Made by a program: the position numbers and the translations under genes
NCBI RefSeq assembly: GCF_003402535.2
Contig: NZ_AP025172.1
Coordinates: 1,550,001-1,614,000, forward strand
Reading direction: 5' to 3'
DNA: 64,000 nt
Source: Cupriavidus sp. P-10
GTDB taxonomy: Bacteria; Pseudomonadota; Gammaproteobacteria; Burkholderiales; Burkholderiaceae
The notes under the pieces: model-generated
Told to the model about the DNA's origin: nothing
Database searches by the model: none
What the model saw: the letters and a program-made list of their open reading frames with translations, nothing else
Part shown: positions 8,641 through 51,687 of the stretch, in pieces
Numbering within the stretch: the stretch's first letter is position 1
How the letters are laid out: every line of letters begins with the position of its first letter

Positions 8641-9717
8641 ATGACCGATTTCCAAGCAGCCGTATGGGTACGCCGGACTCTTCTGGTATGCCTGCTCGGC
8701 GGGCTGCTCGCCCTTTCCTTCGTCATAGTGCGGCCGTTCCTTGTGCCTCTTGCCTGGGCCGCAATCCTCACCTATGTCACCTGGCCGCTCAATGCGTGGC
8801 TGCGCCGCGTGCTGCGCCAGCGGCGAACCTGGGCTGCGCTGGCCTCCACGCTGGTACTTGCCGCGATGCTGGGCGTACCGCTCATCGGGCTCACCATCCT
8901 CCTGCGTGCCGAGATGGTCGCCGCCTACCGTGAGGCGGCAGAGATTGTGAACGCGGGCGTCGAACTGCCGGATTCGCTCGCACGCCTGCCCTGGGTCGGC
9001 GAATGGTTGCAGGAATGGCTGTCAGTGCTGTTGGGTGACCGCGCAGCCCTGCGTGCCCAGGTCACGGCGCTGATCGAACGGTGGGGCGGCGCCCTTGCAA
9101 GGCTGGCCGGCGGTGTGGGACTCAACGCAGGGCTCATTGGCGTGACGCTGCTGACGGCATTCTTTTTCTTCCGCGACGGCGAGAAATTGCTCGCGCAGTT
9201 GCGCCTGGTCCTGCAAGGGATTCTCGGGCCCCGCGCGCACGGGTACTTCATTTCAGTGGGAGACACCGCGCGGGCCGTGGTGTTTGGCCTCTTCCTCGCC
9301 GCGGTCGCCCAGGGGTCGTTCGCCGGAATCGGCTACTGGGCGGCAGGTGTCGAAGCGCCGGTGTTCTGGGGCATTGCCACTGCCATCCTGGCACTGATTC
9401 CCTTTGGTGCGCTCGCGATCTGGGTCCCCATCGGCGCATGGCTGCTCATTACCGGCCACACGGTGGCGGGGATCGGGCTCCTGCTGTGGGGCGCTACGGC
9501 CGTGAGCTGGGTCGATAACGTCGTTCGTCCGCTGGTCATCAGTGGGGCCACCAAGATTCCGTTCCTGCTGGTGATGTTCGGCGTTTTGGGCGGACTCGCC
9601 GCATTCGGCCTGATAGGCCTGTTCATCGGGCCAGTGATCCTCGCGGTGCTGCTCGCCGTATGGCGCGAATGGCTGGAAAGCCAGGCGGAGCAGCCGCTGG
9701 GGCCACCGCCGGCGTAA
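8641..9717 (+). CDS. AI-2E family transporter (YdiK/PerM-like permease)
   Basis: A 358-residue integral membrane protein of the PerM/YdiK/TqsA family. It has paired hydrophobic segments near the N-terminus, a soluble stretch around residues 85-150, then a cluster of membrane helices ending GLFIGPVILAVLLAVWREW, the usual family C-terminus. ATG 8641 is preferred to an in-frame TTG at 8596 because the hydrophobic N-terminus starts soon after and AGGTG precedes it. Members have been linked to autoinducer-2 export, Na+/H+ exchange or generic efflux; nothing nearby favours one. Confidence 0.8.
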   Translation: MTDFQAAVWVRRTLLVCLLGGLLALSFVIVRPFLVPLAWAAILTYVTWPLNAWLRRVLRQRRTWAALASTLVLAAMLGVPLIGLTILLRAEMVAAYREAAEIVNAGVELPDSLARLPWVGEWLQEWLSVLLGDRAALRAQVTALIERWGGALARLAGGVGLNAGLIGVTLLTAFFFFRDGEKLLAQLRLVLQGILGPRAHGYFISVGDTARAVVFGLFLAAVAQGSFAGIGYWAAGVEAPVFWGIATAILALIPFGALAIWVPIGAWLLITGHTVAGIGLLLWGATAVSWVDNVVRPLVISGATKIPFLLVMFGVLGGLAAFGLIGLFIGPVILAVLLAVWREWLESQAEQPLGPPPA

Positions 9718-9806
9718 CGGGGGAGACACCTGTCGCTCATCCCATCGCCAGCTCAGGCATGTCCTGAGTCAGCCACGCTGGCACCGACGGCGCCGGCAGG
9801 TGCTGC

Positions 9807-27841: not shown

Positions 27842-28828
27842 TCAGGAGTCTAGTGTGATGCCGGCTTCGCGGATGACGGTGCCCCACTTCTTCAGGTCGT
27901 CTCTCGTGAGTTGCGCGACTTCCGCTGGGGAACGTGCGCTGATCTCATCATTGCCCAGTTGCGCCAGCTCCTTGATCACCGCCGGGTCCGCCATGACTTT
28001 CTGTAGTTCGCCCTGTAGCCGGGTAGCCGCCTCCTTGGGCAAGCCCGCTGGCGCGACCATGCTGAAGCGCAACGTCGCCTCGTAGCCCGGCAGGCCGCGT
28101 TCGGCAAGCGTAGGGACCTCCGGCAAGGCAAGCGAGCGCTTTGCCGATGTCACGCCGAGTGCACGCACCTTGCCTGCCGCAATCATCGGCAACGCGGGCC
28201 CGATCGTGGCCATCATGACGGGCACCTGTCCGCCGATCAGGTCCGTCATGGCAGGGCCGGCGCCACGGTACGGAATGTGGTCGAGCGCGACGCCGGCCTT
28301 GCGCTTGAACAGTTCGCCGGCCAGATGGTGCACTGACCCAACCCCCGAGCTGGCGTAGCTGTACTCGCCCGGCTTCGCCTTCCTGAGCAGCGCCACAAGC
28401 TCTTCCACGCTGCTGGCGCGGACATTCGGATTGACGATCAGGGCGAGGCCCGTGGTGCAGACGTAGGACAGGTAGGTGAAGTCCTTGAGCGGGTCGTAGC
28501 CGAGCTTGCGCAGGTTGGGCATGATGCTCATCGGCCCCGAGTCGGTCAGCCCGAGGATGTAGCCATCCGGAGCGGATCGCGCGACGGATTCGGCACCGAT
28601 GGAAGCCCCCGCGCCGGGCTTGTAGTCGCAGACCACAGGCTGTTCCAGATACTGCTCCAGCCGACGGCAGATGATGCGCGCCGTCGCGTCAGTGGAGCCT
28701 CCGGTGGCATAGCCAAGCACGACTTTCAGCGGCTTGCTGGGCCAGGATCTGGCCTGCGCGTGAGGTAGCGCAAGCCATGTGGCCCCCGCCCCCAGAAAAC
28801 GCAACATGTTGCGACGCTCTGGCTTCAT
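27842..28828 (-). CDS. Tripartite tricarboxylate transporter receptor (Bug family), malonate operon
   Basis: A 328-residue periplasmic binding protein of the Bug family, abundant in beta-proteobacteria. The N-terminus has a twin-arginine-like ERRNMLRFLGAGATWL signal ending near AQA; WPSKPLKVVLGYATGGSTD and GAGASIGAESVARSAPDGY are the ligand-binding loops. GGGAGG gives a strong ribosome site. It heads the mdc operon, so malonate or a close dicarboxylate is the probable ligand. The membrane partners (TctA/TctB type) are not in this window. Confidence 0.85.
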   Translation of the reverse strand: MKPERRNMLRFLGAGATWLALPHAQARSWPSKPLKVVLGYATGGSTDATARIICRRLEQYLEQPVVCDYKPGAGASIGAESVARSAPDGYILGLTDSGPMSIMPNLRKLGYDPLKDFTYLSYVCTTGLALIVNPNVRASSVEELVALLRKAKPGEYSYASSGVGSVHHLAGELFKRKAGVALDHIPYRGAGPAMTDLIGGQVPVMMATIGPALPMIAAGKVRALGVTSAKRSLALPEVPTLAERGLPGYEATLRFSMVAPAGLPKEAATRLQGELQKVMADPAVIKELAQLGNDEISARSPAEVAQLTRDDLKKWGTVIREAGITLDS

Positions 28829-29318: not shown

Positions 29319-30233
29319 TCAGGACGAACGCTGGTCCTTGGGCTTGTAGTTGTCGACCTGGTTGGCCGATTCGAAGCTGGCGCGGTTCAGGCTGAGGAAG
29401 GACTCCGCGGAAAACGGTGCCTGCAGTTCGCGCACCACGTCGGCACCGCCCGAGCGGAGGCGGTCCCAGGTGGTGTTGAGCTTGTTGTCGTGATGCACGC
29501 AGAAGTCGCCGCAGTCCTTGTGGTGGGACATGATGATGGCGGCCACCTGGGTCTTGGCGGCCGGCGTCGCCGCAGAGTTGGCCAGGTAGTCCTCGGCCCT
29601 GGCGGACTCAAGGAAGTGCTCGCGCACCTGGTTCTTGTAGTCGGTCACGCTGCTGCGGCATTGCTGCGACCAGGTCGAGCAGGCGCTCAGCAGCGCCTGG
29701 AGTTCGGCAACCTTGGTGTCGAAGATATCGAGGCGCCGCTCAGCCTGCGCGACCTTGAGGGCCAGGTCCAGCTTGCCGGCGCAGCGCGCGGTGCCGTTTT
29801 CCGTGCCCACGCGTCCGGTTGCGTTCCACGCGTCGCCGGCGATCTTCATCTCTTCCACCGAATGGGTCACCTTGAAACGGTAGCGGTCCATGTCGGCGAC
29901 GCTCGCTTCCTTGAGCGAGAACTTGACATGCTCCTCCACCGTGATCGGCCCTCCCCTGTTCAGCTTGCGGGTATGCAGGTAGCTGCGCAGCTTGCCTTCG
30001 ACAGCCGTCTCGGCCTGCGAGATCAGGCCGCCGATCACGGGGATTGGGATCAGGCTCAGCGAGGCCCGGCCGATCGCAGTCAGCCCGCCCAGCGCCTTGG
30101 AGGCAAAAGAACCCTTTGAGTTGATCGCGCTGCGCAGGCCATGGAAGCGAGACGAATGCCCGATCCGGGCCAGAACGCCTTTGTTGGAAACCTTCTCGGC
30201 TGCATAGACCCAGATGTCGCGAGTTGTCGGCAT
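29319..30233 (-). CDS. Hypothetical protein at the end of the T6SS operon
   Basis: A 304-residue protein that I do not recognise. It has no signal peptide. Residues 45-75 include a hydrophobic Ile/Pro/Gly stretch (SLIPIPVIGGLI) that might insert in a membrane. The middle (about 150-215) is helical and charged, and the C-terminal half has spaced cysteines (SACSTW...QQC and KDCGDFC). AAGGAC precedes the ATG. It lies 52 bases after tssA in the same direction, so it is probably transcribed with the secretion genes; an accessory protein or secreted effector are both possible. Confidence 0.6.
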   Translation of the reverse strand: MPTTRDIWVYAAEKVSNKGVLARIGHSSRFHGLRSAINSKGSFASKALGGLTAIGRASLSLIPIPVIGGLISQAETAVEGKLRSYLHTRKLNRGGPITVEEHVKFSLKEASVADMDRYRFKVTHSVEEMKIAGDAWNATGRVGTENGTARCAGKLDLALKVAQAERRLDIFDTKVAELQALLSACSTWSQQCRSSVTDYKNQVREHFLESARAEDYLANSAATPAAKTQVAAIIMSHHKDCGDFCVHHDNKLNTTWDRLRSGGADVVRELQAPFSAESFLSLNRASFESANQVDNYKPKDQRSS

Positions 30234-36435: not shown

Positions 36436-37764
36436 TCATCCCTTGACGAACAGCAGGACTTCCTGCGGCCGCTGCGCGCTGGCGCCCTCGTTCGGATTGC
36501 CGATCACCATGGCCTCGTTGCCGTGGATCAGCGCCGGATCGGCCTCGATCTCGAACAACACATAGCCGGAGCCGGCGCGCACGCCGAGCTCGTCGGCATG
36601 CTCGACGACGCGGCGCGCGGCGCCGAGCACGCGGTGCGCGCGCAGCGACGGGTAGGCCGACTGCGAGCCCACCATGGCGCCATCCATCCATGCGCGCAGA
36701 TCGCGCTCGGACTGCCCGCGCAGCCCCACCACCAGGTGTTCGCCGATCCAGTCCGGTTGCAGCGCGATCTCGAAGGCGCCGTGGCGGAACTCGAACTTGT
36801 GCTCGCGGTAGGCCTCGCTGACCTCTGCCAGCGACTCGCGCACCGCGCGCAGCAGCGGCGCGAACGCGCTCATCGGGTCGGCGTGGTCGTAATCGTGCGG
36901 CACCGGCGGCAGCGCGCCCGGGCGCAGCATGCTGAGCGACCCCAGCAGCGAGGCCAGCGCCAGGTACAGGGCCAGCGGATGCAGGTGGGGCGTGCGCAGC
37001 ACCGCCTCGACCAGCGGCAGGTCGGTCAGCAGGCAGCGCAGCCGGTCCCTGAGCTCGAGCTGGGTCAGGCGGTCGTCGGCCTTGGAGGATGGCACCGCGG
37101 TCTGCTTGGCGACGAATGCGGCCTTGCTGCGCAACTGCCCGAGCATCGACGCCACCGCCGTCCACAGCGGGGTGTCGCGACCCACCTCGAGCAGCGGCGG
37201 CAGGCGCTCGCCCAGCCGCACCACTTCGTTGTCCTTGTAGGCCGTGCCCAGGCACAGCGACACATAGAGCGAGGATGGCTGCGCGCCGGCACTGAGGGCA
37301 AGGTTGGGCACCAGCCGTGCGATGTCCGCCGGCGGTGCCTGCGACACCTCGTCCTCGACCGGGGCCCCGAGCACCGAGCGGAAGCGCCGGACCTGCGCAT
37401 CGCGCCGCATGGTCCCCGCCACCGGCAGCACCAGGTGGATATCGACCGTGCCGGCGGCGAGCTGTTCGGCAAACGGTGCCAGCGACAGCTCCAGCGGCCC
37501 CAGCCGCTCATCGTCGCCGCTGTAGGAGACCGCGGTGCCGTCCGGCATCACCGCGTCGAGCTGCAGCACGCGCACGATGCCCACCGGCAGCAGGCCGGTG
37601 TCGAACACCAGGCGCCGGACCCCCCAGCTGAACGGGGCCGCTGCCAGCGTCTGCCAGGCCACCAGCGAATCGAGGCGTGCCCCCAGCAACTGGAAATGCT
37701 GCGGTGCCAGCAGCATGCCTTCGTGCCATTCGACACGGTCAACCAGTGTCAGGTTGTCACGCAT
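36436..37764 (-). CDS. tssK: T6SS baseplate protein TssK
   Basis: A 442-residue TssK. It starts VDRVEWHEGMLLAPQHFQ, the invariant family opening, followed by the shoulder domain and a C-terminal domain that contacts TssL. TssK connects the baseplate (TssE, TssF, TssG) to the membrane complex. GGAG lies six bases before the ATG. It follows tssJ by 75 bases. No motif is missing. Confidence 0.93.
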   Translation of the reverse strand: MRDNLTLVDRVEWHEGMLLAPQHFQLLGARLDSLVAWQTLAAAPFSWGVRRLVFDTGLLPVGIVRVLQLDAVMPDGTAVSYSGDDERLGPLELSLAPFAEQLAAGTVDIHLVLPVAGTMRRDAQVRRFRSVLGAPVEDEVSQAPPADIARLVPNLALSAGAQPSSLYVSLCLGTAYKDNEVVRLGERLPPLLEVGRDTPLWTAVASMLGQLRSKAAFVAKQTAVPSSKADDRLTQLELRDRLRCLLTDLPLVEAVLRTPHLHPLALYLALASLLGSLSMLRPGALPPVPHDYDHADPMSAFAPLLRAVRESLAEVSEAYREHKFEFRHGAFEIALQPDWIGEHLVVGLRGQSERDLRAWMDGAMVGSQSAYPSLRAHRVLGAARRVVEHADELGVRAGSGYVLFEIEADPALIHGNEAMVIGNPNEGASAQRPQEVLLFVKG

Positions 37765-37839
37765 GGATGGCTCCAGCGGCTGTCAGGGCTGCCACGGCCG
37801 CGGCGCGATGCCGGCCCCGGGAAGAAGATTGCAGAACAC

Positions 37840-38352
37840 TCATTTGCTTGTCGAGACGCTGACGGCACTGCTGCTGAGCTGGACTGCCAGCGTGCCGCTG
37901 AATTGATCGATCCGGACGCGATGCGCGCCCGGTTCCGGGTAGTTGGCAAACACGAAGACGGCCGTCACGCGCGGGCCTTCGAATTCCTGAGGCGGGACTT
38001 CCAGGCGCTGTCCCGGCACCAGTTCCCAGCTACGGAAGCGCAGGCTTCCAGGATAGGTATTGCTGAGGTCGGTCCGGCCCGCGAACCATTTAGAGGCGGG
38101 CAGTTCGACCAGCCGGCCCTGCAGCGCCTCGTCGCTGACCAGCACCACGTCGACCGCCACCGGGCTGTTGCCGTTGGCGTCGTCGGCAGCATTCAGGACG
38201 ACCTGCTTCCACTTGACGCGGTCGCCCTTGAAACCCAGGAACGACGGCGCCGAGCAGCCACCCAGCAGCACTGTCGAAGCCGCCAGCGTGCCTGCCAGCA
38301 GCAGCGCACCGGCCCGACCCGCGCTGCCACGCCAGATCGACACTACCTTCAT
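37840..38352 (-). CDS. tssJ: T6SS outer-membrane lipoprotein TssJ
   Basis: A 170-residue lipoprotein. The signal peptide ends LLGGC, giving lipidated Cys33. The mature part is a transthyretin-like beta sandwich with VAVDVVLVSDEALQGRL and VTAVFVFANYPEPG. TssJ anchors the TssM periplasmic domain at the outer membrane. It starts 31 bases after the symporter of the embedded cassette, which places the cassette directly before the membrane-complex genes. Confidence 0.88.
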   Translation of the reverse strand: MKVVSIWRGSAGRAGALLLAGTLAASTVLLGGCSAPSFLGFKGDRVKWKQVVLNAADDANGNSPVAVDVVLVSDEALQGRLVELPASKWFAGRTDLSNTYPGSLRFRSWELVPGQRLEVPPQEFEGPRVTAVFVFANYPEPGAHRVRIDQFSGTLAVQLSSSAVSVSTSK

Positions 38353-38383
38353 TGCATGTCTCCAGACTGTCGGCGGACGGCCA

Positions 38384-39817
38384 TCATTTGGCGCCCACCC
38401 CGATTCCCATCAGCACGATCAGCGCCGCCGCGGCCAGCCCGCAGGCGCCGAGCAGCATCATTTGCGCGCGCGTAAACACCAGCCGCAGCACCACACCGCC
38501 GCGCTCCTCCATCTGCACCGACTGCGGCGCCGGGCGTTCGCTGGGCAGGCCCACCGACACCAGCGCCACGACTGCGCAGGTCCAGATCAGGCTGAGCGCG
38601 TTGCGCGGACCGTCGCAGATCGGGTCCACCGCCAGCAGCAGCACGCCGGCGGCTTCCATCGGCAATTGCAGGCCGGACAGCACCACACCGGAGTACGCCA
38701 CCGTGCCGACGCCGTTCTGCCCGGCCGACAGGCAGGCCGCGACGGTGGCGGCGCCGGCAATCCAGGCCAGTTCGCCGGCACCGACCGGGCGCCCGTACAG
38801 GTTGGCCACGAACACCGCCACCAGCCCGAAATACAGCGCCGAGCCGGCGCGCAGGAAGACCGAGCCGAACGGCATCGTCAGTTCCACCAGCCCGCGCGGA
38901 AAGCCCAGGCGCGTGCTCATCACCTCGATCGCATGCGGGATCGGCGCCGTCGCGCTGCCCGAAGCCAGGCCGACCATCATCGGCCCCTTCAGCTCGGTCA
39001 TCACCTGCGCCAGCGGCAGCCGCGCGCAGCGCGCGATGGCCAGCGCCGCGGCCACGCTCAGCAGCAGGCACAGCGCCGTAAAGCTGGACAGCACCCCTGC
39101 CATCGCCTGTACCGTGGCGGAATCGGTGTGCATGGCCAGGTGCGCAGCCAGCCCGAACGCCAATACCGGCAGCAGCAGGTTGGCGTGGGCGATGATGCTT
39201 TCAAAAGTGCGGTAGATGCCCTCGAACACGTTGCTGAGCATGCTGGTCTGCTCGCGCGACAGGGCCGCGAACGCCAGGCCGAACAGGATGGTGCCGGTCA
39301 GGATGCCGAGCGTGTGGCCCTGCGCCAGCGCGCGATAGAAGTTGTCGGGCACGATGTCTTCCAGCTCCGCCACCGGCACCCCCGCAATGGCTGCCGTGCT
39401 GTCGTCCGCGCCCCGCCCGGCCAGGTCCATGCGGACCTCGCCGCCGTCGGCCACGCGCTTCAGGATCAGCTGGCCCAGTTCGCCCCCGGCGCTTTGCGTC
39501 AGCCCGGCACCGGGCGCCATCAGCACGCCGGCCAGCGTGCCTGCCACCGCGCACAGGGCCAGCAGCGCCACGCCAACCCCGAGCAGGGTGCCGGTGCGCA
39601 GGCCCGGCCGCGGCAGCGTCAGCACCTGGCGCAGGCCAAAGAACGTGGCCACCACCAGCAGCGGCACCGACGCCATGTTGACCACCGACAGGTAGAGCTG
39701 CCCGAACAGCCATGCCAGCGTGCCGAGTGGAGGCATCACCATGCCCGCGCCAGCGCCGGCCACCAGGCACAGCAGCAGGCCCGGAAAGGAGTTGGAGAGC
39801 CAGCGCAGGGCTTTCAT
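38384..39817 (-). CDS. Dicarboxylate/amino acid:cation symporter (first copy), in the T6SS cluster
   Basis: A 477-residue DAACS/SLC1-type symporter. It has eight or more membrane helices, SVVNMASVPLLVVATFFGL in the first half, and the C-terminal transport region with SGSATAPIPHAIEVM, GSALYFGLVAVFVANLYG and AVDPICDGPRNALSL, the last carrying the substrate- and cation-binding Asp/Asn pattern. The ATG overlaps the racemase stop by four bases (ATGA). Relatives import aspartate, glutamate or C4-dicarboxylates with Na+ or H+. Together with the racemase and a second symporter it forms a cassette inside the secretion operon. Confidence 0.85.
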   Translation of the reverse strand: MKALRWLSNSFPGLLLCLVAGAGAGMVMPPLGTLAWLFGQLYLSVVNMASVPLLVVATFFGLRQVLTLPRPGLRTGTLLGVGVALLALCAVAGTLAGVLMAPGAGLTQSAGGELGQLILKRVADGGEVRMDLAGRGADDSTAAIAGVPVAELEDIVPDNFYRALAQGHTLGILTGTILFGLAFAALSREQTSMLSNVFEGIYRTFESIIAHANLLLPVLAFGLAAHLAMHTDSATVQAMAGVLSSFTALCLLLSVAAALAIARCARLPLAQVMTELKGPMMVGLASGSATAPIPHAIEVMSTRLGFPRGLVELTMPFGSVFLRAGSALYFGLVAVFVANLYGRPVGAGELAWIAGAATVAACLSAGQNGVGTVAYSGVVLSGLQLPMEAAGVLLLAVDPICDGPRNALSLIWTCAVVALVSVGLPSERPAPQSVQMEERGGVVLRLVFTRAQMMLLGACGLAAAALIVLMGIGVGAK

Positions 39818-40515
39818 TGGGCCTTGTTCCAGCCGCGCTCCATGGCGAAGGCCACGGTGGCGCGCGCCAGTTCGAGGGTGCTGTCGATCATCGTCAGCGG
39901 CGCCAGGCCGAGCTGGCGCAGCGCTACCGGGATTTCGGTGCAACCCATGATGGCCACGTCAATATTGCGCGCGGCAAGGGGCGCCAGCGCAGCCTGCAGG
40001 GCTTCGCCGGCGGCCTCGAGCGCGCCGGCCTTGACCGCGCGGATGCAGGTGTCGACCTGGGCCTGCACGGCTTCGTCCGGCACCACCGGCTGGATGTCGC
40101 GCTCGGCCAGCGCGTCCTGGTAGATGCGCGAAGCCAGCGCGCCGCGCGTGGCCAGCACCGCCACGCGGCGGGTGCCGTGCGGCAGCGCCGCCACGCAGGT
40201 GCTGGCGATATGCAGGATCGGCGCGCTGCTGCGCTCGCGCAACTGGCGGTACCAGTGATGCGAGGAATTGCACGGAATCACCACCAGCCCGACCTGGTTG
40301 CGGTTGAGCAGGTCGATTCCCGCCAGCAGGTGCGGCAGCGGCGCCCCGTCGCCAGCCAGGATCGATCGCGAGCGATCCGGCGTGTGCGGCAGGTGCGCCA
40401 CCACCATGGGCAGGTGCTCCTGGTCGCAGGAGGCATCCGTCAGCCGGACCACACGGTCCATGAAATCCACCGTCGCCAGCGGCCCCATGCCGCCCAGAAT
40501 GCCGATCATCGCCAT
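39814..40515 (-). CDS. Aspartate/glutamate racemase family protein
   Basis: A 233-residue Asp/Glu racemase. IGILGGMGPLATVDF is the family opening. The two catalytic cysteines are visible in VIPCNSSHHW (Cys82) and MGCTEIP (Cys192). It would interconvert L- and D-aspartate or glutamate without a cofactor. There is no signal peptide, so it acts in the cytoplasm unless exported by another route, the T6SS being one possibility. It overlaps the downstream symporter gene by four bases and lies 16 bases after the other symporter gene. Confidence 0.88.
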   Translation of the reverse strand: MAMIGILGGMGPLATVDFMDRVVRLTDASCDQEHLPMVVAHLPHTPDRSRSILAGDGAPLPHLLAGIDLLNRNQVGLVVIPCNSSHHWYRQLRERSSAPILHIASTCVAALPHGTRRVAVLATRGALASRIYQDALAERDIQPVVPDEAVQAQVDTCIRAVKAGALEAAGEALQAALAPLAARNIDVAIMGCTEIPVALRQLGLAPLTMIDSTLELARATVAFAMERGWNKAQ

Positions 40516-40531
40516 GACGCGCCGCTTGCTG

Positions 40532-41806
40532 TTAGATTTTGAGAGGACGCGGGCAGATCACCGAGACTGCGGCGGCGTTGCCGATCACCAGGATCAGCGT
40601 GCGCAGCATGTCGCAGACGGGATCGACCGCCAGGAACAGAATGAAGGCCGCCTCGAACGGCAGGCCGAGGTAGGCGCAGGTCATGCCGACCAGCGACACC
40701 GTGACCAGGCCCGTCATGCCAGCCGAGGCAAAGCCCGCCAGCACCGAGGCCATCACCACCGTGGCGATCTCGACCGGGCCGAGTGCGCGCCCGTAGAGCT
40801 GGGCGATGAACAGCGTGGCGCACACGTAGTAGACCATCGGGCCCACGCGCAGCAGCGACACCGCCAGCGGCACCAGCAGTTCCACGCGCGCGCGCGCAAA
40901 CCCCAGCCTGTCGACCAGGCTTTCGATCATGCTAGGCATGCAGGCAGCGCTGTTGCGCGTGGCCAGGGCCAGCGCAAATGGCGCGCGCAGCGCGTTCAGG
41001 GTCTCGCTCAGGCTCTGGTTGGAACGCTTCCAGATGATGGCCACCGCCAGCGCCAGCAGCAGCACCGAGGCCACGAAGAAGGCAATGACGAACTGCAGCA
41101 TAGCCTGCAGCGGCTCGAAGCCGGACTTGCCGAGCTGGGCCGCGCTCATGCAGAACAGGATCACCGGCAGGGGGTAGCTGAGCCAGTGCATCAGCTTCTG
41201 GCAGGCGTGATAGATCGTCTCCAGCGACAGGCTCAGGCCAATAGAAATGCGTTCCGGCACGCGTCCCACCGCCAGCCCGAACAGCAGCGCGAACACCAGC
41301 GCCTTGAGCGCGTCACCGTTGGCCAGCGCGGCGAAGATATTGGTCGGGATCAGGCTGGTCAGCACATCGGAAAACCGCAGCGACTTCTCCGGGATGTCGG
41401 CACCGTACAGGTTCATGACGGTATCGCTGGAATTGCTGTCATGGCCGACCATGGCGCCAAACGTCTGCATGGTGGCGGCGGACAGGTTGGTGCCCGGGCT
41501 CAGCAGCATCAGCACCACCGCGGCCACCAGCGCCACCAGCACCGAGGCGCCGACGAACACCGTCACCACCCGGATCAGCAGGCGCGAAGCGCCGCCGTCG
41601 CGGAACAGGCGCTGCAGGCTGAAGATCACCGCCGACACCATGAAAGGCAGCGTGGTCATCTTGAGCAGATCCACATAGAGATCACCCACCACGCCGAGCG
41701 GCTGCGCCATCGCGGGCCACATGAGGCCCATGGCACCGCCCAGCGTCAGGCTCCCGATCACGACCCACGGGTTGAGGGCAAAGGCATATAGCTTGGTCGC
41801 GTTCAT
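40532..41806 (-). CDS. Dicarboxylate/amino acid:cation symporter (second copy), in the T6SS cluster
   Basis: A 424-residue DAACS/SLC1-type symporter, clearly different from the first copy in the cassette but with the same pattern: LKMTTLPFMVSAVIFSL, ATRNSAACMPSMIESL, and LAVDPVCDMLRTLILVIGN near the C-terminus. It lacks part of the canonical serine-rich hairpin, having RNSAA instead. It lies between the binding-protein gene (20 bases upstream) and the racemase gene (16 bases downstream), so it is part of the same transcript. Confidence 0.85.
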   Translation of the reverse strand: MNATKLYAFALNPWVVIGSLTLGGAMGLMWPAMAQPLGVVGDLYVDLLKMTTLPFMVSAVIFSLQRLFRDGGASRLLIRVVTVFVGASVLVALVAAVVLMLLSPGTNLSAATMQTFGAMVGHDSNSSDTVMNLYGADIPEKSLRFSDVLTSLIPTNIFAALANGDALKALVFALLFGLAVGRVPERISIGLSLSLETIYHACQKLMHWLSYPLPVILFCMSAAQLGKSGFEPLQAMLQFVIAFFVASVLLLALAVAIIWKRSNQSLSETLNALRAPFALALATRNSAACMPSMIESLVDRLGFARARVELLVPLAVSLLRVGPMVYYVCATLFIAQLYGRALGPVEIATVVMASVLAGFASAGMTGLVTVSLVGMTCAYLGLPFEAAFILFLAVDPVCDMLRTLILVIGNAAAVSVICPRPLKI

Positions 41807-41826
41807 CTTGGTTTTTCTCCTGGTGC

Positions 41827-42858
41827 TTACTGAGCGGCGGCTGCCAGCACATCAGCCACTTCGAGGTGCTTGGGCCGCTCCGCCAGGAACTGGTTGACAA
41901 AGGCCAGCAGCGCCGGCGCAGACACGTTAACGGCAATGCCGAGGGTGTCCTCGAGGTCGTGCAGGGTCACCACGCGCAGGCGCAGCGCCGCGGTCGGGTC
42001 GGCCTTGAGCACGCGCTTGACCTCGAACTCGTCGCGGTAGACCGCGGTCACCTGGCCGGCGTCGAGCGCCTTGAGCGCGCTGTCCCAGGTCGGGTAACGG
42101 GTGACATAGGCCTTGGGAAAATTGCTCATCACGTACTCGGAGTAGGAGGAATTGCCGACTACGCCGATCGAGCTGTCATAGGCGCGGATGACGTCGGGCA
42201 CCGGCCGGCCGCGCGCCAGCTGGGCGAATTTGACGCGGTTGAGCAGCAGTGCGCGGTTCAGGCGCAGATAGGGCGAACTGAAGCTGATGATCTGGGTGCG
42301 TGGCAGCGTGCGCGACAGCTTGCTGACGGCCATATCGGCCTTGCCCTGCGCCAGCAGGCTGACCACACCGTCGAACGTGGTGGCATCGCGGTTAAAGCGC
42401 AGCCGGACGTTCAGCTTCTGGGCCAGTTCACGGGCCAGGTCGATATCGAGCCCGACCAGCTGGCCGTTGCGCTCCTGGAAGAAGGGCGGCTGGTCGACCT
42501 TGAGCACCGCCACCACCAGTTCGCCACGCTCGTAGATGCGGGCGAACTCCGGCGCCAGCAGGCGGCCGTCAGGCATCTGCACCAGGCCGGTGGAGGTCAC
42601 CACCGGCGACGCGGCGGGGGCCGGCGTGGTGGCCGACGCGCTGGCCGACGCGCTGGCCGGCAGCGCACGGGCGGCACCCGGCGTGCCGGCTGCCCCGACC
42701 GCTACCGGCAGGCCGACCGCCACTGCGGCCAGCATGCAGGCCAGCGGGGCGCGCAGCCTCGCGGCGGCGCGGCTCAGGCGGGAAGAGACTGCGCCTGACA
42801 AGCTCGGCGCAACGGGAAAGTCAGCAAATGACATGGGGCGAAATCCGTTCGGTTTCAT
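41827..42858 (-). CDS. ABC-type amino acid substrate-binding protein (family 3), in the T6SS cluster
   Basis: A 343-residue protein. A long N-terminus holds an Arg-rich patch and a hydrophobic segment (LACMLAAVAVGLPVAVGAAG), then an Ala/Ser/Pro-rich linker encoded partly by a 12-bp repeat, then a family 3 binding domain. GELVVAVLKVDQPPFF and LVGLDIDLARELAQKLNV are the ligand-binding loops. ATG 42858 overlaps the preceding small membrane-protein gene by four bases. No ABC permease or ATPase lies nearby; it may deliver or sense acidic amino acids for the two symporters, or be anchored in the membrane. Confidence 0.8.
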   Translation of the reverse strand: MKPNGFRPMSFADFPVAPSLSGAVSSRLSRAAARLRAPLACMLAAVAVGLPVAVGAAGTPGAARALPASASASASATTPAPAASPVVTSTGLVQMPDGRLLAPEFARIYERGELVVAVLKVDQPPFFQERNGQLVGLDIDLARELAQKLNVRLRFNRDATTFDGVVSLLAQGKADMAVSKLSRTLPRTQIISFSSPYLRLNRALLLNRVKFAQLARGRPVPDVIRAYDSSIGVVGNSSYSEYVMSNFPKAYVTRYPTWDSALKALDAGQVTAVYRDEFEVKRVLKADPTAALRLRVVTLHDLEDTLGIAVNVSAPALLAFVNQFLAERPKHLEVADVLAAAAQ

Positions 42859-43133
42859 TGAATCTTGGGGGGGCTGGCAATAGCTGCCACATCGGTCGGC
42901 ACTTCGGTCGCCACCTCGGCGACGGCCCCGGGCGCGGCGGGCTGAGCCTGCACGGGCATCTGGCCTGGCTCCGGCGCCGGTGTCTGCCCCGGCATCAGCA
43001 CGGGGCCGGCGGCCGGATGCGCCAGGCGGGCGCCGATCTCGATACCCATCAGGAACAACAGCACGCACAGCACCACCGCGCAGCTCACGGCGATGGCTAC
43101 CATCCGCGAAGTCATGGAAAAGACGTAGGTCAT
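42855..43133 (-). CDS. Small membrane protein with Pro/Ala-rich tail
   Basis: A 92-residue protein that I do not recognise. One membrane helix spans about residues 11-33 (VAIAVSCAVVLCVLLFLMGI). The rest is a Pro/Ala/Gln/Val-rich, probably unfolded tail exposed to the periplasm. It lies 7 bases after the PAAR-like gene and overlaps the binding-protein gene by four bases, so it is co-transcribed. Position suggests a link between the secretion spike genes and the amino-acid cassette; function unknown. Confidence 0.65.
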   Translation of the reverse strand: MTYVFSMTSRMVAIAVSCAVVLCVLLFLMGIEIGARLAHPAAGPVLMPGQTPAPEPGQMPVQAQPAAPGAVAEVATEVPTDVAAIASPPKIQ

Positions 43134-43140
43134 ATTGGTT

Positions 43141-43527
43141 TCAGGCAGTCATCACGGTGGTCTGGCCCGGCGCCACGATCTGGATCACGCCCCCCCAGGC
43201 ACACATCAGCTTGGATGTGTTCTGCAGGGCAGGCATGCCGCCGATCAGCACGGTGGGCGAGCCCGGAATCCAGGGTGCGGTGGTCACCGGCACGCAGGGC
43301 ATCGGCGTGAGCGCGCCCAACGCTGCCGCGGTGGCTGCCGCCACCACGGGATTGGCCATCGAGTTGCAGCTGCCGAATGGCGGAATATTGACGATCGGCT
43401 TGTTGTCCATCACGTTGGCCGCCGGCGCGCCGGCCATGACGCGATTGACCGGCAGCACGCACAACGTCGACGGCGCCGCGCCAAAGCTGCACTGCATGGT
43501 GGTGCCGGTATTGACCTGGATGCCCAT
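43141..43527 (-). CDS. DUF4280-family PAAR-like protein
   Basis: A 128-residue protein. MQCSFGAAPSTLCVLP, VMAGAPAANVMDNKP, TPMPCVPVTTAPWIPGSPT and the closing LMCAWGGVIQIVAPGQ fit DUF4280, a PAAR-like family that sharpens VgrG spikes or carries effectors. Several cysteines may bind metal. It lies between the MORN-like gene (4 bases) and the small membrane protein (7 bases). The start at 43527 is supported by the conserved GIQVNTGTTMQCSFG opening. Confidence 0.82.
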   Translation of the reverse strand: MGIQVNTGTTMQCSFGAAPSTLCVLPVNRVMAGAPAANVMDNKPIVNIPPFGSCNSMANPVVAAATAAALGALTPMPCVPVTTAPWIPGSPTVLIGGMPALQNTSKLMCAWGGVIQIVAPGQTTVMTA

Positions 43528-43531
43528 CGTT

Positions 43532-44248
43532 TCAGCCCCTGACCCAGCGCTCGAGGCGCCGGGAAAAACTCGGCGCGGCGGCGCCGTTGTCGGTCGCGGC
43601 CGCAGCGCGCCATTCGCCGCGCGGCTTGCCTTCCATGTAGTCGCGCTGCCAGCTGACACGGCCGGCCTCGTCGAAGCGGCGTGCGGTGCCATGCAGCAGG
43701 TCGGCGCGAAAGGGCTCGGACAGCGTCAGGGTCCCGTCCGCCGCATAGCTGCGGGTCTCGCCGTCCAGCTTGCCGGCACGGAAGCGGCTGCGCCGCACCA
43801 CCACGCCTTCGTGCAGCCAGATCGCTTCGCCTTCGAGCAGGCCCTGGCGAAACACTGCCTGCGCCACCAGCTCGCCCGCAGGCCCATAGCAGTTGCGCTC
43901 GCCTTCGAGCACGCCGTTCACGTAGTGCTCGCGGCAAGCCAGGCGGCCCTGCTGGTAGCTTTGGCTGGGACCGTGGCGCAGGCCGCCGGCATAGTGCGAA
44001 GCCAGCACCGGCTCGCCGGCGGCGTCATAGCTGCGCAGCCAGCCCGACAGCTTGCCTGCCACATAGTCCGCCTCCAGCAACAGCGTACCGTGCGGGGCGA
44101 AGCGCTCCATGCGGCCTTGCGGCAGCCCGCCGGCCAGGCCACAGCGCGACAGCAGCCGGCCCGCGGCGTCGCGTTCCTCGACGACTTGCGTGTCGGTGGG
44201 CGCGGCGTTGGCGTTAGCGGCAGTGTCCAGGGGGGCGGTGGCGTGCAT
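43532..44248 (-). CDS. MORN-repeat-like protein next to vgrG
   Basis: A 238-residue soluble protein made of about seven repeats with the pattern Y..G.L.G....Y...G (for example VAGKLSGWLRSYDAAGEP and RAGKLDGETRSYAADGTL). This is the MORN/YwqK-like repeat found beside contact-dependent toxins and T6SS spikes. It lies 8 bases after vgrG and 4 bases before the PAAR-like gene, so it is probably an adaptor, chaperone or immunity-like protein for spike cargo. Function not proven. Confidence 0.7.
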   Translation of the reverse strand: MHATAPLDTAANANAAPTDTQVVEERDAAGRLLSRCGLAGGLPQGRMERFAPHGTLLLEADYVAGKLSGWLRSYDAAGEPVLASHYAGGLRHGPSQSYQQGRLACREHYVNGVLEGERNCYGPAGELVAQAVFRQGLLEGEAIWLHEGVVVRRSRFRAGKLDGETRSYAADGTLTLSEPFRADLLHGTARRFDEAGRVSWQRDYMEGKPRGEWRAAAATDNGAAAPSFSRRLERWVRG

Positions 44249-44256
44249 CGGCGGCT

Positions 44257-46185
44257 TCAGTTCAGTTTCACCATGGCGCCCTTGAGCTCGAGCATGCCGC
44301 CGCTTTCCACCGTGTGCGAGGCCGATGCCTTCTGCTGCACGGTCATGCCCTCGCCGCTCAGCGTGGTACCCGCCTTGTTTGCCAGGGTGGTGCCCGCCTT
44401 GTTGCTCAGCGAGGTGCCGGCCTCGAGCGCCACCGAGCCTGCCGACTTGATGGTGATGGCGCCCGTCACATCGATCACCAGGTCGCCCGACACCTTGAGC
44501 GTGTAGGTTCCGCTGACCTCCTGGGTGAAGGCGGCGCCGTTCGTGCGGGTCTCATCACCGCCTACCTCAAGACTGCGGGTGCCGCTCACCTTGTGGGTTT
44601 CGTTGCCCGACTGCACCTCGACCAGCCGGTCGCCCTTCTGTACAACATGGGACTCGCCGGCGCCGACCACGGTGGTGGACAGCTTGTTTTCCACCGCCAC
44701 GTTCATGTCGCGCTGCGCGTGCAGGTAGAGCTCCTCGGCGCCGGCCTTGTCCTCCATGCGCAGCTCGTTGCCGGCGCTGCCGTTCTTGGAGGTGCGCGAG
44801 CGGATCACGCTCTGGGTCTGCATCGAGGGCAACGTCACCGGCGGCGTCACCTGGCCGTTGTAGACGCTGCCCGTCACCAGCGGCCGGTCGGGGTCGCCGT
44901 CGACGTAGCTGACCACCACCTCCTGTCCCACGCGTGGCAGGAACAGTTGGCCCCAGCCATGGCCGGCCATGCCCTGCGCCACCCGGACCCAGCACGAGCT
45001 GTCCTGGTCGGCGCCGGGAGCCTGGTCCCAGTGGAACTTGAGCTTGATGCGGCCGTGCTGGTCCGTCCAGATTTCCTCGCCCTGCGAGCCGACCACGGTT
45101 GCGGTATGGGTGCCGGCCACCAGCGGACGCGGCGTCACCAACGGCGCGCGGAATGGCACCGCCAGCGGGAACACCGTGAAGCTGTTGGCATAGTGGCTGC
45201 CGGCCACCGAGTGCTCGACCGCACGCACCACGTACTCGGCGTTCAGCGCCGCGTTGACGTGGCCGCCAAGGGTAAAGGTGCCGCCCGCGGCAAGGCCGTG
45301 GCAGTTGCTCTCGCCGCTGCCGCAGCGGGCCTCGACCTGCTGTGCGGCCACCCGTACCGCCGCCTTGCGCGCGGCGTCCGAGGCATCCTTGTGCCGCCCC
45401 GGGAAAATGTACTGGCGCGCGCCGGGTGCGCTCGAGGCCGGCTGCGCGCTGCCCTGGCTGGTCTGCGCCTGCACGTAGTCGTAGTCGGCCAGCACGTGGC
45501 TGGCCGGGCCGAGTCCCTGTTCCATGCGAAAGGCCGCCAGCATCGGCAGGCCCGCCGCCTGCTCGCCCGGCTGCCCGCCCCACAGCTCGGCCTCGTGGGG
45601 CAGCGCGGCGTGGGCCGAGGGACTGTCGCCCAGCACCATCGTGTGTGCGCCGTCGGCGAAGGTGAAGTAGTAGAAGATGCCCTCTTCCTCCATCAGCCGC
45701 GCGATGAACTGCAGGGGACTTTCGTCGTACTGCACGCAGTACTCGCGCACCGGGTAGCGCGAAGCGGTGACGCGCGCGTCGAACGCTACCTCGAACTCGC
45801 CCAGCACGCTGCGGATGATGTCGAGCGCGCTCTGGTTCTGGAAGATCCTGCGGTCGCGCGCCAGCGTCAGCAGCCATAGGCGCGGCGCCAGCTCGGCGCT
45901 GTAGAACGCATGGCTGGGGTCGGCGCCGGTATGGGCGAAGCGCGTCACGATGCCGTTGAAACAGCGCAAGAAGCCGCCCGGCCGCTGCAGCCTGACAGTG
46001 ACCTTCTGGCCAACGATGCGGCTGCCATCGAGCGCCTTGTCCGCCGAGCGCATGCGCAGCTGGAAGGAAAACGGCTCGGAAAGCGCCTCGCGCCCGGCAA
46101 ACCCGTCGAGCAGCAACACGTTGTCGCCAAACGGCGTGGTGACTGTGGCGAAGCTGTCGGACTGGGTGGAGGTCGCCGGAATCAT
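44257..46185 (-). CDS. vgrG: T6SS spike protein VgrG
   Basis: A 642-residue VgrG/TssI. The N-terminal gp27-like part contains FGDNVLLLDGFAG and YCVQYDESPLQFIARLMEEEG; the gp5-like OB fold has VGSQGEEIWTDQHGRIKLKF and the GQEVVVSYVDGDPDRP region; the C-terminal beta-needle ends with repeated KSAGSVALEAG-like strands. There is no extra C-terminal domain, so effectors would ride on the PAAR-like protein or Hcp. It lies 4 bases after clpV. GGAGG about 12 bases upstream overlaps the end of clpV. Confidence 0.93.
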   Translation of the reverse strand: MIPATSTQSDSFATVTTPFGDNVLLLDGFAGREALSEPFSFQLRMRSADKALDGSRIVGQKVTVRLQRPGGFLRCFNGIVTRFAHTGADPSHAFYSAELAPRLWLLTLARDRRIFQNQSALDIIRSVLGEFEVAFDARVTASRYPVREYCVQYDESPLQFIARLMEEEGIFYYFTFADGAHTMVLGDSPSAHAALPHEAELWGGQPGEQAAGLPMLAAFRMEQGLGPASHVLADYDYVQAQTSQGSAQPASSAPGARQYIFPGRHKDASDAARKAAVRVAAQQVEARCGSGESNCHGLAAGGTFTLGGHVNAALNAEYVVRAVEHSVAGSHYANSFTVFPLAVPFRAPLVTPRPLVAGTHTATVVGSQGEEIWTDQHGRIKLKFHWDQAPGADQDSSCWVRVAQGMAGHGWGQLFLPRVGQEVVVSYVDGDPDRPLVTGSVYNGQVTPPVTLPSMQTQSVIRSRTSKNGSAGNELRMEDKAGAEELYLHAQRDMNVAVENKLSTTVVGAGESHVVQKGDRLVEVQSGNETHKVSGTRSLEVGGDETRTNGAAFTQEVSGTYTLKVSGDLVIDVTGAITIKSAGSVALEAGTSLSNKAGTTLANKAGTTLSGEGMTVQQKASASHTVESGGMLELKGAMVKLN

Positions 46186-48883: not shown

Positions 48884-49972
48884 TCATGAAAGCGCGCTGG
48901 CGCCGGCAGCATCGGCGCAGGCACGCAGCGACAGCCGCACCGGTGCGGGCTGCGCGGCAGCACCACCGGCCAGCCACGCAGTCCAGCCCAAGCGGGCGCC
49001 GCCGCCCAGGCGCGTGGCTGGCTGCTCGGCAACCTGCAGCGCGAGCTGCACGTCGAATGGTTGCGGCGCATGGCTGCGCACCAGCCATGCCACCAGGTCG
49101 TGATCGGGACCGCCGGGCAGCAGCGCTTCCAGCCGCCGCGCGTCCGGCACCTGCAGGTCCAGGCCAATGCCTGCGGCCTGGTCCCAGCACCGCCGGCCCA
49201 GCACCGCGCCGCCGCCCAGCTGCGTTCCCGGCGTGCCACGCCCGGCCAGGCGGACCGAGTCGGTGCGCTCCACCGCCAGCCAGCCGCCGACGAACTGGCG
49301 GCCGCGCACCCGCAGCCCCAGCCGGTCGCCCAGCAGGGCCAGCAGCCCTTCCATCGAGCGCGGCGCGGCGCCCAGCAGGCCGGCGTGGCGCAGCCAGGGC
49401 GCTGCGCCGGCCGGACCGCGCAGGCCGGCACGCAGGCCCAGGTTGCTGAGCGCATCGAGGCAAGTGGCCAGCGTCGTGGTGGCAGGCGCCTGCGCGCCCA
49501 GCCCCGGCGCGTGCTTGGCGCGACCGCGATAGAGGAAGGACAGGAAGCGGTGATTGAAAATGTCGAGCAGCTCTGCCATGGCATGGTCGCGCGCCGCGCG
49601 CCGCTCCAGCAGCAGCTCGGTGTAAGGCAGCGGCAGCGGCCCATTCGCCCCCGCCAGCGACAGGGCCGGCGTGGTCAGCGTGTAGGGCGGCTGGCCGGCC
49701 CCGGGGGGCAGCGCATGGTCGGCATGGTCGCCATCGTGCGGTGCGCCGGCAGCCACCGATGCCACGTCGCGCGGCTGGAAGGCCAGCGAGACCAGCCCGC
49801 GCAGGCGCACGGCCTCGCCGCTGCCGTCGCCGTGGCCGAGCGGACGCGCACCGGGCGTGGCCCGCTCCAGCAGGCCGATGGCCTGGAACAGGTTGAACGC
49901 GGCGGGGTTGGCGGCGAGACGGTCGATCACAGCAGCGTCTGGCAGCCGGTCATCGGCTCCCATTGCTTCCAT
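48884..49972 (-). CDS. tssG: T6SS baseplate protein TssG
   Basis: A 362-residue TssG. FNLFQAIGLLER near residue 25 and the LLDIFNHRFLSFLYRGRAKH segment are hallmarks of the family. TssG bridges two TssF copies in the baseplate wedge. ATG 49972 has GGAGA seven bases upstream, giving a 46-base overlap with tssF; a second in-frame ATG at 49963 is possible. The Arg- and Pro-rich C-terminus is usual for high-GC relatives. Confidence 0.9.
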   Translation of the reverse strand: MEAMGADDRLPDAAVIDRLAANPAAFNLFQAIGLLERATPGARPLGHGDGSGEAVRLRGLVSLAFQPRDVASVAAGAPHDGDHADHALPPGAGQPPYTLTTPALSLAGANGPLPLPYTELLLERRAARDHAMAELLDIFNHRFLSFLYRGRAKHAPGLGAQAPATTTLATCLDALSNLGLRAGLRGPAGAAPWLRHAGLLGAAPRSMEGLLALLGDRLGLRVRGRQFVGGWLAVERTDSVRLAGRGTPGTQLGGGAVLGRRCWDQAAGIGLDLQVPDARRLEALLPGGPDHDLVAWLVRSHAPQPFDVQLALQVAEQPATRLGGGARLGWTAWLAGGAAAQPAPVRLSLRACADAAGASALS

Positions 49973-51687
49973 ATCTCGTCTCCGCGGCGCACCACCAGCC
50001 GCACAAAGGAATTGACCGAGGTGTACAACGCGAAGAAGCGCGCCAGCACGGCGCCCATCAACAGCGGCGATCCCCCGGCGAAGGCGTCGGCATCGAACTC
50101 GATGCCGATCTCGGTGCCGCGGCAGAAGCCGCGCCAGGCATCGCCGCCGATATGCGCGGTGACACCGCGCGACTGCACGCTGCGTATGCCACGGATCTGT
50201 TCCAGTTCGCGGCTGCCGTCGGCGGCGAACAGGCGCAGCATCTGCTGCACCTCGTGGCGGCCGGTGGCACCGCTGGACAGCGTGCCGTGATGCAGCGTCA
50301 GCAGCGACACCAGTCGCCACAGCGATTCGCCGCCCAGCGGAGGATTGCGCTGAACCGTCGGCTCGTACAGGCAGCGCACGCGCGCGTTCTGCGAGACGTT
50401 CTCCACCAGCATGCGCGCCCCCACCGGCACCTGCTCGGCCAGGCGCCGGTTGGTGCACAGCACGTTGGCGTAGGCGACCGGCGCTGCCGGCTGGCCGGAG
50501 GCCTTGCCCGCATCGACAAAGGTCAGGTAGGTGTCGGTGCCGGACAGGCCGGGCCGCAGGGTCGCCTCGCGGCGGGTCCACCAGTACACCCCGTCGGCGG
50601 CCGCGTCGCCGCTGGCCGCGGCAACCGGTGGCACCGCCTGGGTGCGATCGCTGGCCGGGTCGGACAGCACCACCGAGCTGACCGAATGGATCTCGGTGGC
50701 GGCCTCGCGCCGCTGGTCCGCCACCAGCCGGTACTCGTAGTGACGCTGGTCGAGCACGATCGGCTCACTGGTCTGCGAGAACAGGTTGATGGCCGGCACG
50801 CAGCCGAGGCGGAAATTGCCGGCGCCGATGCGCGCCATGCCGCGCGGCATGCGCGCCAGGCGCAGCACGATATCGCAGCGCGTGCCGCGCCCAAGCCGGC
50901 CCGCGGGCAGCGCCAGGTCGAAGAAGTGGAACTTGCGCGGAAAGGCGAAGTACTCCTGCATCAACCCATAAGCCGGTTGCGCATTGGGCGGCTGCGGCAG
51001 CACCGCCTCGTCCGCACCGTAGCCGACCTCGCGCCAGGCCGAAGCCGGCAGCAGCGAGGCCTCACCGTCGCACGGCTCGATGCGCACGCTGGCCACCCCG
51101 CTCACCAGCAGTTCGTAGAGCGGCATCGTCACCATCCAGTCGCCGTGCAGGTGCAGGCGCAGCGTGGTGAGCTCCAGCTCGGAGAAGTCGACGCCGTCGG
51201 CACAGGCCAGCGTCAGGCGCAGGGTATGGTCCTGGTCGAGCCGGGCCTGCTCGACCGTCAGCGGCCACAGCGTGGTTTCCCAGCTGGTGCGGAAGCGGCA
51301 GGTCTCACCGTCCTCGGTACGGGCCTGCAGCCCGGTATGGCGCGGTACCCGGTAGCCCGCGGTGACCTTGCCCTGGCTGGGGTCGAGCGCGAACTGCACC
51401 ACGGTCATCGAGGGCAGCGGCTGCACCAGAGCCGGGCAGACGTTCTCCAGCAGGGACGATGCGACCTGCGGAAAGGACTGGTCGAGATCGCGGTGCACGC
51501 GCGCGGCCAGGAAGGCCGTCGCCTCGATCAGGCGTTCGGTATGCGGATCCAGCGATTCGGTGCCGTGCAGCGCCAGGCGCGACGCCACCTTGGGATAGCG
51601 TTCGGCGAAGGCCGCGCCCTGCGTGCGCAGATAGGACAGCTCCTGCTTGTAGTAGTGCAGGATGTCGCCTTCGCCCGGCTCAGCCAT
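49927..51687 (-). CDS. tssF: T6SS baseplate protein TssF
   Basis: A 586-residue TssF. It starts LHYYKQELSYLRTQGAAFAE, the standard opening, followed by RLIEATAFLAARVHRDLDQ. TssF with TssG and TssE forms the baseplate wedge. ATG 51687 overlaps the tssE stop by eight bases, and the 3' end overlaps tssG. The length is within the family range of about 580-630. Confidence 0.92.
   Translation of the reverse strand: MAEPGEGDILHYYKQELSYLRTQGAAFAERYPKVASRLALHGTESLDPHTERLIEATAFLAARVHRDLDQSFPQVASSLLENVCPALVQPLPSMTVVQFALDPSQGKVTAGYRVPRHTGLQARTEDGETCRFRTSWETTLWPLTVEQARLDQDHTLRLTLACADGVDFSELELTTLRLHLHGDWMVTMPLYELLVSGVASVRIEPCDGEASLLPASAWREVGYGADEAVLPQPPNAQPAYGLMQEYFAFPRKFHFFDLALPAGRLGRGTRCDIVLRLARMPRGMARIGAGNFRLGCVPAINLFSQTSEPIVLDQRHYEYRLVADQRREAATEIHSVSSVVLSDPASDRTQAVPPVAAASGDAAADGVYWWTRREATLRPGLSGTDTYLTFVDAGKASGQPAAPVAYANVLCTNRRLAEQVPVGARMLVENVSQNARVRCLYEPTVQRNPPLGGESLWRLVSLLTLHHGTLSSGATGRHEVQQMLRLFAADGSRELEQIRGIRSVQSRGVTAHIGGDAWRGFCRGTEIGIEFDADAFAGGSPLLMGAVLARFFALYTSVNSFVRLVVRRGDEIWKQWEPMTGCQTLL

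Follow-up and report, generated by a model that had tools for sequence, protein, structure and literature searches.

A solute-binding protein, SDF-transporter and racemase cassette in a type VI secretion operon of Cupriavidus sp. P-10 and its possible role in acidic amino acid transport

The analyzed window, 64,000 nucleotides of Cupriavidus sp. P-10 (contig NZ_AP025172.1, positions 1,550,001 to 1,614,000, assembly GCF_003402535.2; source genome of 9.08 Mb in five contigs), contains a type VI secretion system (T6SS) operon in which four minus-strand genes lie directly before tssJ. They encode a family 3 solute-binding protein (SBP; 41827..42858; PF00497, E 4.5e-20), an SDF-fold transporter (SDF2; 40532..41806; PF00375, E 4.8e-58), an Asp/Glu-family racemase (RAC; 39814..40515; PF01177, E 1.1e-40; TIGR00035), and a second SDF-fold protein (SDF1; 38384..39817; PF00375, E 1.2e-42). 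Judged from sequence, the chances are about even that this cassette is a binding-protein-fed, Na+-uncoupled unit for the transport and racemization of acidic amino acids, tied to the T6SS by SDF1. Four observations are new: the cassette is retained family-wide with this T6SS, T6SS-free copies lack SDF1, both transporters have lost the NMD loop and belong to an Arg-bearing clade paired with SBPs, and the C-terminal helix of SDF1 matches that of a small T6SS-resident protein, sTM.

In the proposed mechanism, SBP, SDF2, and RAC would act as one metabolic unit. SBP would bind the L or D form of Asp, Glu, or cysteate as its acidic alpha-amino acid in the periplasm and deliver it to SDF2, which would transport it independently of Na+, exchange or facilitated passage being the likeliest mode. 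RAC would interconvert the L and D forms inside the cell, keeping the gradient or feeding an L-for-D exchange. It is reported that D-Asp and L-Asp are carried alike by GltTk (PMC6482001). In the i4a-type (T6SS-b) operon, the related SDF1 would have been added beside tssJ, where its most likely place is among the T6SS membrane components, in a sensing or gating role and not as a carrier of bulk flux.

Cassette layout and previously described clusters

On the minus strand, the gene order from 5' to 3' is vgrG, MORN/YwqK, DUF4280 PAAR-like, sTM, SBP, SDF2, RAC, SDF1, tssJ, tssK, tssL, tssM, and tssA. The positions of the four cassette genes and the gaps that follow them down to tssJ (20, 16, -4, and 31 bases) agree to the base with a first-pass annotation made from the sequence alone, and sTM and SBP overlap by 4 bases. 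A gene list in print for T6SS-b of P. phymatum STM815 (Bphy_5978-5997; L125 in the locus set used here) has the same genes in the same order, namely YwqK, PAAR-like, hypothetical protein, amino acid ABC transporter, symporter, racemase, and symporter; that system was typed as i4a by SecReT6 and predicted to form one operon, and the list comes with no tested function for these genes (PMC8356804). The account also states that other soil bacteria carry the cluster, including a Janthinobacterium copy without the racemase, that two symporters within a T6SS were previously unreported, and that they likely carry a substrate other than that of DctA (PMC8356804). The mention of T6SS-linked racemases in related bacteria in the first-pass annotation is thus borne out. 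The accessible part of the account mentions neither the lost NMD loop nor the pairing of SBP with SDF proteins, copies without a T6SS, or the shared helix (PMC8356804), and no later work on the cassette was found in the literature covered, from which subscription papers were largely absent.

A single transcript for the cassette and the T6SS genes, as first proposed from the short gaps, is plausible. In 37500-44400, where 0.5 sigma-70-like sites would be expected, consensus matching found none, and the operon prediction for the ortholog (PMC8356804) points the same way. Against it stand 9 terminator-like matches in the same interval, seven of them on the minus strand, versus 2.6 (sd 1.6) in shuffles, these again being consensus matches only.

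Retention of the cassette across genomes

The RAC scan of genome contigs returned 42 loci, 36 of which (L008-L043, 52-96% identity) lie in Burkholderiales or proteobacterial assemblies, with the RAC of C. pinatubonensis HN-2 (L008) being 96% identical. When SDF2 was searched without requiring RAC, it was found in five of 399 genomes of the order and 40 of 398 genomes of the family, the source genome included. In the same 398 family genomes, TssK of this T6SS (E<=1e-40) occurs in 30, and SDF2 is present in 29 of these 30, G473 being the one without it. SDF1, searched alone, was found at >=44% identity in 29 genomes, a set identical to those with both TssK and SDF2; five further family genomes match the SDF1 query only via their SDF2, at 30-32% identity. 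In 28 genomes of this set, TssK and SDF2 are separated by 3-5 kb on a single contig; in the remaining one, G756, they lie on two contigs. The cassette is therefore kept in the T6SS loci of relatives and is no chance insert, a possibility that the first-pass annotation had wanted checked by gene neighborhood. The 11 family genomes with SDF2 but without this TssK all belong to one genus (g30).

After duplicates were merged, 71 loci remained: 48 T6SS-linked loci with SDF2, 12 with SDF2 that are unlinked (no TssJ, TssK, or ClpV within the 6-10 kb examined per side), and 11 without SDF2, the last comprising three T6SS-linked loci truncated at contig ends, the lone racemases L014 and L029, and six distant racemases. 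The 48 non-redundant T6SS-linked loci have an invariant gene order and contain SBP in every case, SDF1 in 47 (the exception is truncated at the end of its contig), and RAC in 44; all eight marker genes are present in 39, contig or locus ends cut five, and the racemase alone is missing from four. The unlinked loci, 11 of which came from the SDF2 search alone and one (L032) from the RAC search, all contain SBP and RAC (12/12 each) and never SDF1 (0/12). Across both groups, SBP adjoins SDF2 in 60 of 60 loci. Within T6SS loci, the racemase is thus the dispensable part and SDF1 the T6SS-specific part.

The presence of SBP-SDF2-RAC in 12 T6SS-free loci, together with a distant SBP-SDF-racemase trio described below, speaks for an independent function over a purely offensive role. 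Offense or signaling, in which RAC would make D-Asp or D-Glu and the SDF proteins would export it to neighbors, is very unlikely. The conserved catalytic cysteines of RAC fit it, and an uncoupled exchanger could work outward; however, SBP would catch its ligand from outside, four of the 48 T6SS loci drop RAC yet keep SBP and both transporters, and the unit persists without a T6SS.

As for the surroundings of copies outside T6SS loci, L016 adjoins ahpC, with a LysR gene further along, and L032 adjoins a cytochrome c gene that follows an apparent rplQ (read by eye). RAC stands alone at L014 10001-10696 and L029 10001-10711, where no SBP, transporter, or tss gene was matched nearby.

Loss of ion-coupling motifs in SDF2 and SDF1

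Na+ binding of the GltPh type involves N310-M311-D312 of transmembrane helix 7 (TM7), TM3 residues, and D405 (PMC8431971, PMC12668577), and motif positions are given here in GltPh numbering. Both SDF2 and SDF1 match the SDF/DAACS domain and fold (PF00375). At the NMD-loop site, SDF2 has Leu319-Arg320-Val321, the Arg320 codon (40847..40849, minus strand) falling at the GltPh Met311 position in a register set by alignment to PDB chains; N310 is replaced by Leu and M311 by Arg in 61 of 61 rows. In SDF1, the Met311 position is Arg323, and Arg occurs in all 50 rows with letters. N310, D312, and D405 are kept in none of the 61 SDF2 and none of the 50 SDF1 rows, and S93 is kept in 55 of 61 SDF2 rows. 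Both proteins thus lack the Na+-coupled signature (T/S92, S/T93, N310, D312, D405). Since Arg occupies a position of the Na+-site NMD loop, SDF2 is probably Na+-uncoupled; positive residues replace Na+ in CaiT and LaINDY (PMC6472337, PMC11782487). The naming of both proteins as DAACS symporters in the first-pass annotation therefore holds for the family, while the word symporter is doubtful, as the NMD loop is absent from both.

The H+-coupled signature consists of T92 changed to a hydrophobic residue, M311L, and D405N (PMC12668577). SDF2 carries two of the three changes (T92 lost in 60/61, D405N in 60/61), the third position being Arg instead of Leu in 61/61, and SDF1 has Arg at 311 and no D405N. 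With both the Na+ and the H+ signature incomplete, SDF1 and SDF2 are in this respect like the uncoupled SDF exchangers. In SDF2, R397 is invariant, and 60 of 61 rows have an acidic residue (D or E) at position 394.

These residues bear on salvage, in which H+-driven uptake would recover acidic amino acids from T6SS-lysed neighbors, the racemase would convert the D forms, and SDF1 would be a second importer unlinked to the apparatus. This is rather unlikely. The T92 loss and D405N of SDF2 resemble H+-coupled members (PMC12668577), the cassette is placed within a T6SS operon, and a loss of competitive fitness is reported, for two T6SSs taken together, in P. phymatum carrying mutations in them, one of which is a tssI insertion in T6SS-b. 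However, position 311 holds Arg and not the expected Leu, N310 and D312 are lost whereas N-x-D survives in the source genome's five other SDF proteins, and the T6SS-only pattern and sTM-like tail of SDF1 are left unexplained.

In the AlphaFold model of SDF2, built from 29 rows and with a mean predicted local distance difference test score (pLDDT) of 79.1, TM7 is broken at 319-320, the same place at which TM7 of GltPh breaks at the NMD loop. The top match by sequence and by Foldseek is AncInt (9bgz/9bh0/9bgy), a cation-independent aspartate exchanger, and uncoupled members of this kind adjoin amino acid enzymes (PMC12668577). Such exchangers and the two cassette transporters are alike in lacking a full Na+ or H+ signature and in adjoining amino acid enzymes, but AncInt, which derives from a Firmicutes tree, keeps the NMD loop, whereas the cassette SDF proteins have L-R-x and a dedicated SBP (PMC12668577). 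The nearest structure differs between VIA-align and Foldseek, and the structure matches indicate family fit and are no proof of mechanism.

Binding protein and racemase

SBP begins with a signal-like helix and an Ala/Pro-rich linker, and R187 and D276, which we take to be the usual pair holding an alpha-amino acid, are present in 61 of 61 rows. Its model (mean pLDDT 73.9, residues 1-80 poor) resembles binding proteins for arginine, glutamate, tryptophan, and cystine, so the fold leaves the ligand unsettled. TRAP and TTT transporters are binding-protein-fed secondary transporters that differ in membrane fold; we know of no SDF transporter fed by an SBP, no literature search having been aimed at one. 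An apparent SBP-SDF2 fusion in L019 was rejected, its upstream part being out of frame.

Dicarboxylate sensing, in which the transporters would report plant dicarboxylates and switch on T6SS-b in symbiosis, is distinctly unlikely here, as the R187/D276 pair presumably marks SBP as the alpha-amino-acid type and RAC needs an amino acid. The idea stems from the P. phymatum work, where the T6SS-b reporter peaks on citrate but is low on succinate and fumarate (PMC8356804), and DctA offers a precedent (PMC8307970).

Both catalytic cysteines of RAC, already recognized in the first-pass annotation, are conserved in all rows with letters (Cys82 68/68, Cys192 67/67), as in the Asp/Glu racemase family. 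RAC also scores 217.8 bits with the profile of the cysteate racemase CuyB (NF052483, equivalog cut-off 190), a match that does not discriminate, eight of eight other racemases scoring 201-240. Self-protection, in which the racemase would edit the wall of its own cell to guard it from T6SS effectors, a role reported for RacK (D-Lys) of Acinetobacter, is highly improbable: the RAC family fits acidic substrates, SBP and the transporters would be unexplained, and the racemase is dispensable. Two tandem Asp/Glu-family racemases (L002 and L004), 37% and 25% identical to RAC, lie elsewhere in the genome (G000:C2 737879-739288).

A wider Arg-type SDF branch with binding proteins

Two control sets were compared. 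In the first, which comprises the 34 best-scoring SDF proteins (five from the source genome and 29 from a phylum sample of 60 genomes) and is biased to canonical members, N310 and D312 are each kept in 33 of 34, and Arg at 311 occurs in none; N-x-D is intact in all five proteins of the source genome. In the second, 20 lower-scoring SDF proteins of the phylum drawn from sample rows without a locus, with split rows and one stop-bearing row excluded, Arg stands at 311 in seven, N is kept in 11, and D in two. In a 56-row tree, L175, L178, L179, and L180, from other families of the phylum and 28-36% identical to SDF2, join SDF1 and SDF2 in a clade with support 100. L180 is nearest (95, open fork), which weakens an earlier pairing of SDF1 and SDF2 as sisters.

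All four clade members outside the cassette adjoin a PF00497 protein. L178 and L179 adjoin SBPs of the cassette's SBP family (hmmsearch 1.1e-81, 1.4e-62), L175 and L179 adjoin a remoter PF00497 protein (L189 3506-4357, E 6.4e-7; L190 5163-5963, E 3.5e-4, below the cut-off), and L180 lies within an SBP-SDF-racemase run (L191; SBP 1.4e-76, RAC 1.4e-72, PF01177 3e-38). No canonical SDF locus had an SBP or RAC profile match (0/34), within flanks of mostly 1.5 kb and with a profile that may miss remote SBPs. No T6SS match was found in the fetched loci L186-L191, nor any T6SS gene in those fetched for the four clade members. SBP with an Arg-type SDF is thus a wider arrangement, apparently unnamed, that was recruited by this T6SS. 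The stretches with Arg-type SDF and SBP span L189 3506-8043, L190 5163-8120, and L191 5197-8254. In the protein search, the best 120 of 1056 hits (7998 candidates scored) are 78-100% identical.

The SDF1 tail and the sTM helix

sTM (42855..43133, minus strand) is a 92-aa single-helix protein whose motif was found in 44 of 45 PAAR-SBP intervals (exception L084) and in the cassette-less T6SS loci L133 and L134, and was not found in the short gaps of the cassette-less L135 and L136. The C-terminal extension of SDF1 (38384..38484, minus strand) carries a helix resembling that of sTM: the sTM profile (37 rows) scores 51.5 against the SDF1 tail, compared with a maximum of 29.7 in 500 hydrophobic-column permutations and 20.2 in 74 other transporter windows. 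An hhalign E of 8.6e-28 for the same pair was discarded, as permuted profiles reach 140 against 165.8.

As this helix resembles that of a T6SS-resident protein, SDF1 may dock to T6SS membrane parts through it. In E. coli, DctA is a co-sensor of DcuS and docks via its C-terminal helix 8b (PMC8307970). DctA and SDF1 are alike as SDF proteins with a C-terminal helix for a partner, but the proposed partner of SDF1 is a T6SS part and its helix would be a transmembrane one. A bolder version, which is unlikely, would combine an SDF branch with Arg in the Na+ site and a dedicated SBP, an SDF1 built into the T6SS membrane complex via the helix shared with sTM, and acidic amino acids of lysed neighbors that set T6SS activity while SBP-SDF2-RAC consumes or racemizes them.

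Evolutionary history of the cassette

The racemase tree was built from 60 rows, with L043, which is cut, and seven near-copies omitted, and its outgroup branches are long. In it, the 14 T6SS-free rows, namely a Burkholderia clade, L014, L029, and L032, are nested among T6SS-linked rows and need four changes. In the SDF2 part of the SDF tree, the Burkholderia clade stands in an open fork. SBP-SDF2-RAC likely escaped from T6SS loci. The sister T6SS loci L134 and L136, without the cassette, have largely the same order, and L135 is also without a MORN or ClpV match. L133 retains sTM but neither SBP nor SDF nor RAC, and in a tree of 33 chosen rows it falls together with the cassette-bearing L110, indicating that the cassette can be lost. 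Its TssK (9263-10584) is split over two reading frames, and the T6SS of L133 may be decaying.

Evidence for and against a binding-protein-fed, uncoupled unit

Several observations weigh against the proposed unit. Arg at 311 is not unique to the cassette, being found in seven of the 20 lower-scoring SDF proteins, and L167, L168, and L169 form a second Arg-at-311 group outside the clade with no such SBP nearby. SDF2 may be H+-coupled via its two signature changes or other residues, and changing the methionine of GltTk alone leaves Na+ stoichiometry unaltered (PMC8431971). At the substrate contact N401, the 61 SDF2 rows have lost the Asn to L (56), I (4), or T (1), and the 50 SDF1 rows have S (30), T (16), N (2), A (1), or G (1); a different substrate is therefore possible. 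SDF1 keeps R397 and D/E394 (44/50) and may therefore still transport, and the docking idea rests upon one short helix. By VIA-align, ASCT2, GltTk, EAAT3, GltPh, and the ancestral exchanger lie within about 2.5 Z, with the exchanger not ahead. RAC is missing from four of 48 T6SS loci. SBP may also serve an ABC system encoded elsewhere in the genome; the search for a permease and ATPase covered the scanned operon genes, where neither was found. Conversely, the SBP pairing in distant lineages and the SDF1 search strengthen the reading of a binding-protein-fed, Na+-uncoupled unit and weaken salvage.

Other features of the window

tssJ, tssK, and the genes from the PAAR-like gene to vgrG lie on the minus strand. 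tssJ (37840..38352), a lipoprotein gene, was named from sequence and place, with no Pfam or NCBIfam match; TssK (36436..37764; PF05936) served as the marker for this T6SS type. Beyond sTM lie the PAAR-like DUF4280 protein (43141..43527; PF14107), a MORN/YwqK-type protein (43532..44248; PF07661 under its cut-off, YwqK name from PMC8356804), and VgrG (TssI; 44257..46185; TIGR03361). Profiles identified TssA, M, L, K, ClpV, G, F, Hcp, VgrG, TssC, and TssB around the cassette, and the core genes and their order agree with the P. phymatum T6SS-b cluster, as compared with L125; tssE lay outside both checks. The starts of SBP and SDF1 are ATG codons internal to the longest open reading frame. The listed PAAR-like frame (43141-43692) overlaps the MORN gene, and the likelier start, used here, is the ATG at 43527, 4 bases past the MORN stop. 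The TssG frame (48884-50581) extends far into tssF, and its true start is later than listed, as the Pfam match begins only at residue 225. Past tssA, a 304-aa open reading frame (29319-30233) without a Pfam match ends the T6SS run, and a TctC-type tricarboxylate binding protein (27842-28828) lies immediately beyond it.

Implications

If the proposal is true, a weapon operon holds its own amino acid sensor or feeder, and the trigger of T6SS firing becomes testable. An SBP-fed SDF transporter would, if true, be a new transporter layout, and the branch with Arg in place of the NMD motif offers a natural test of ion-coupling loss in the glutamate transporter fold.

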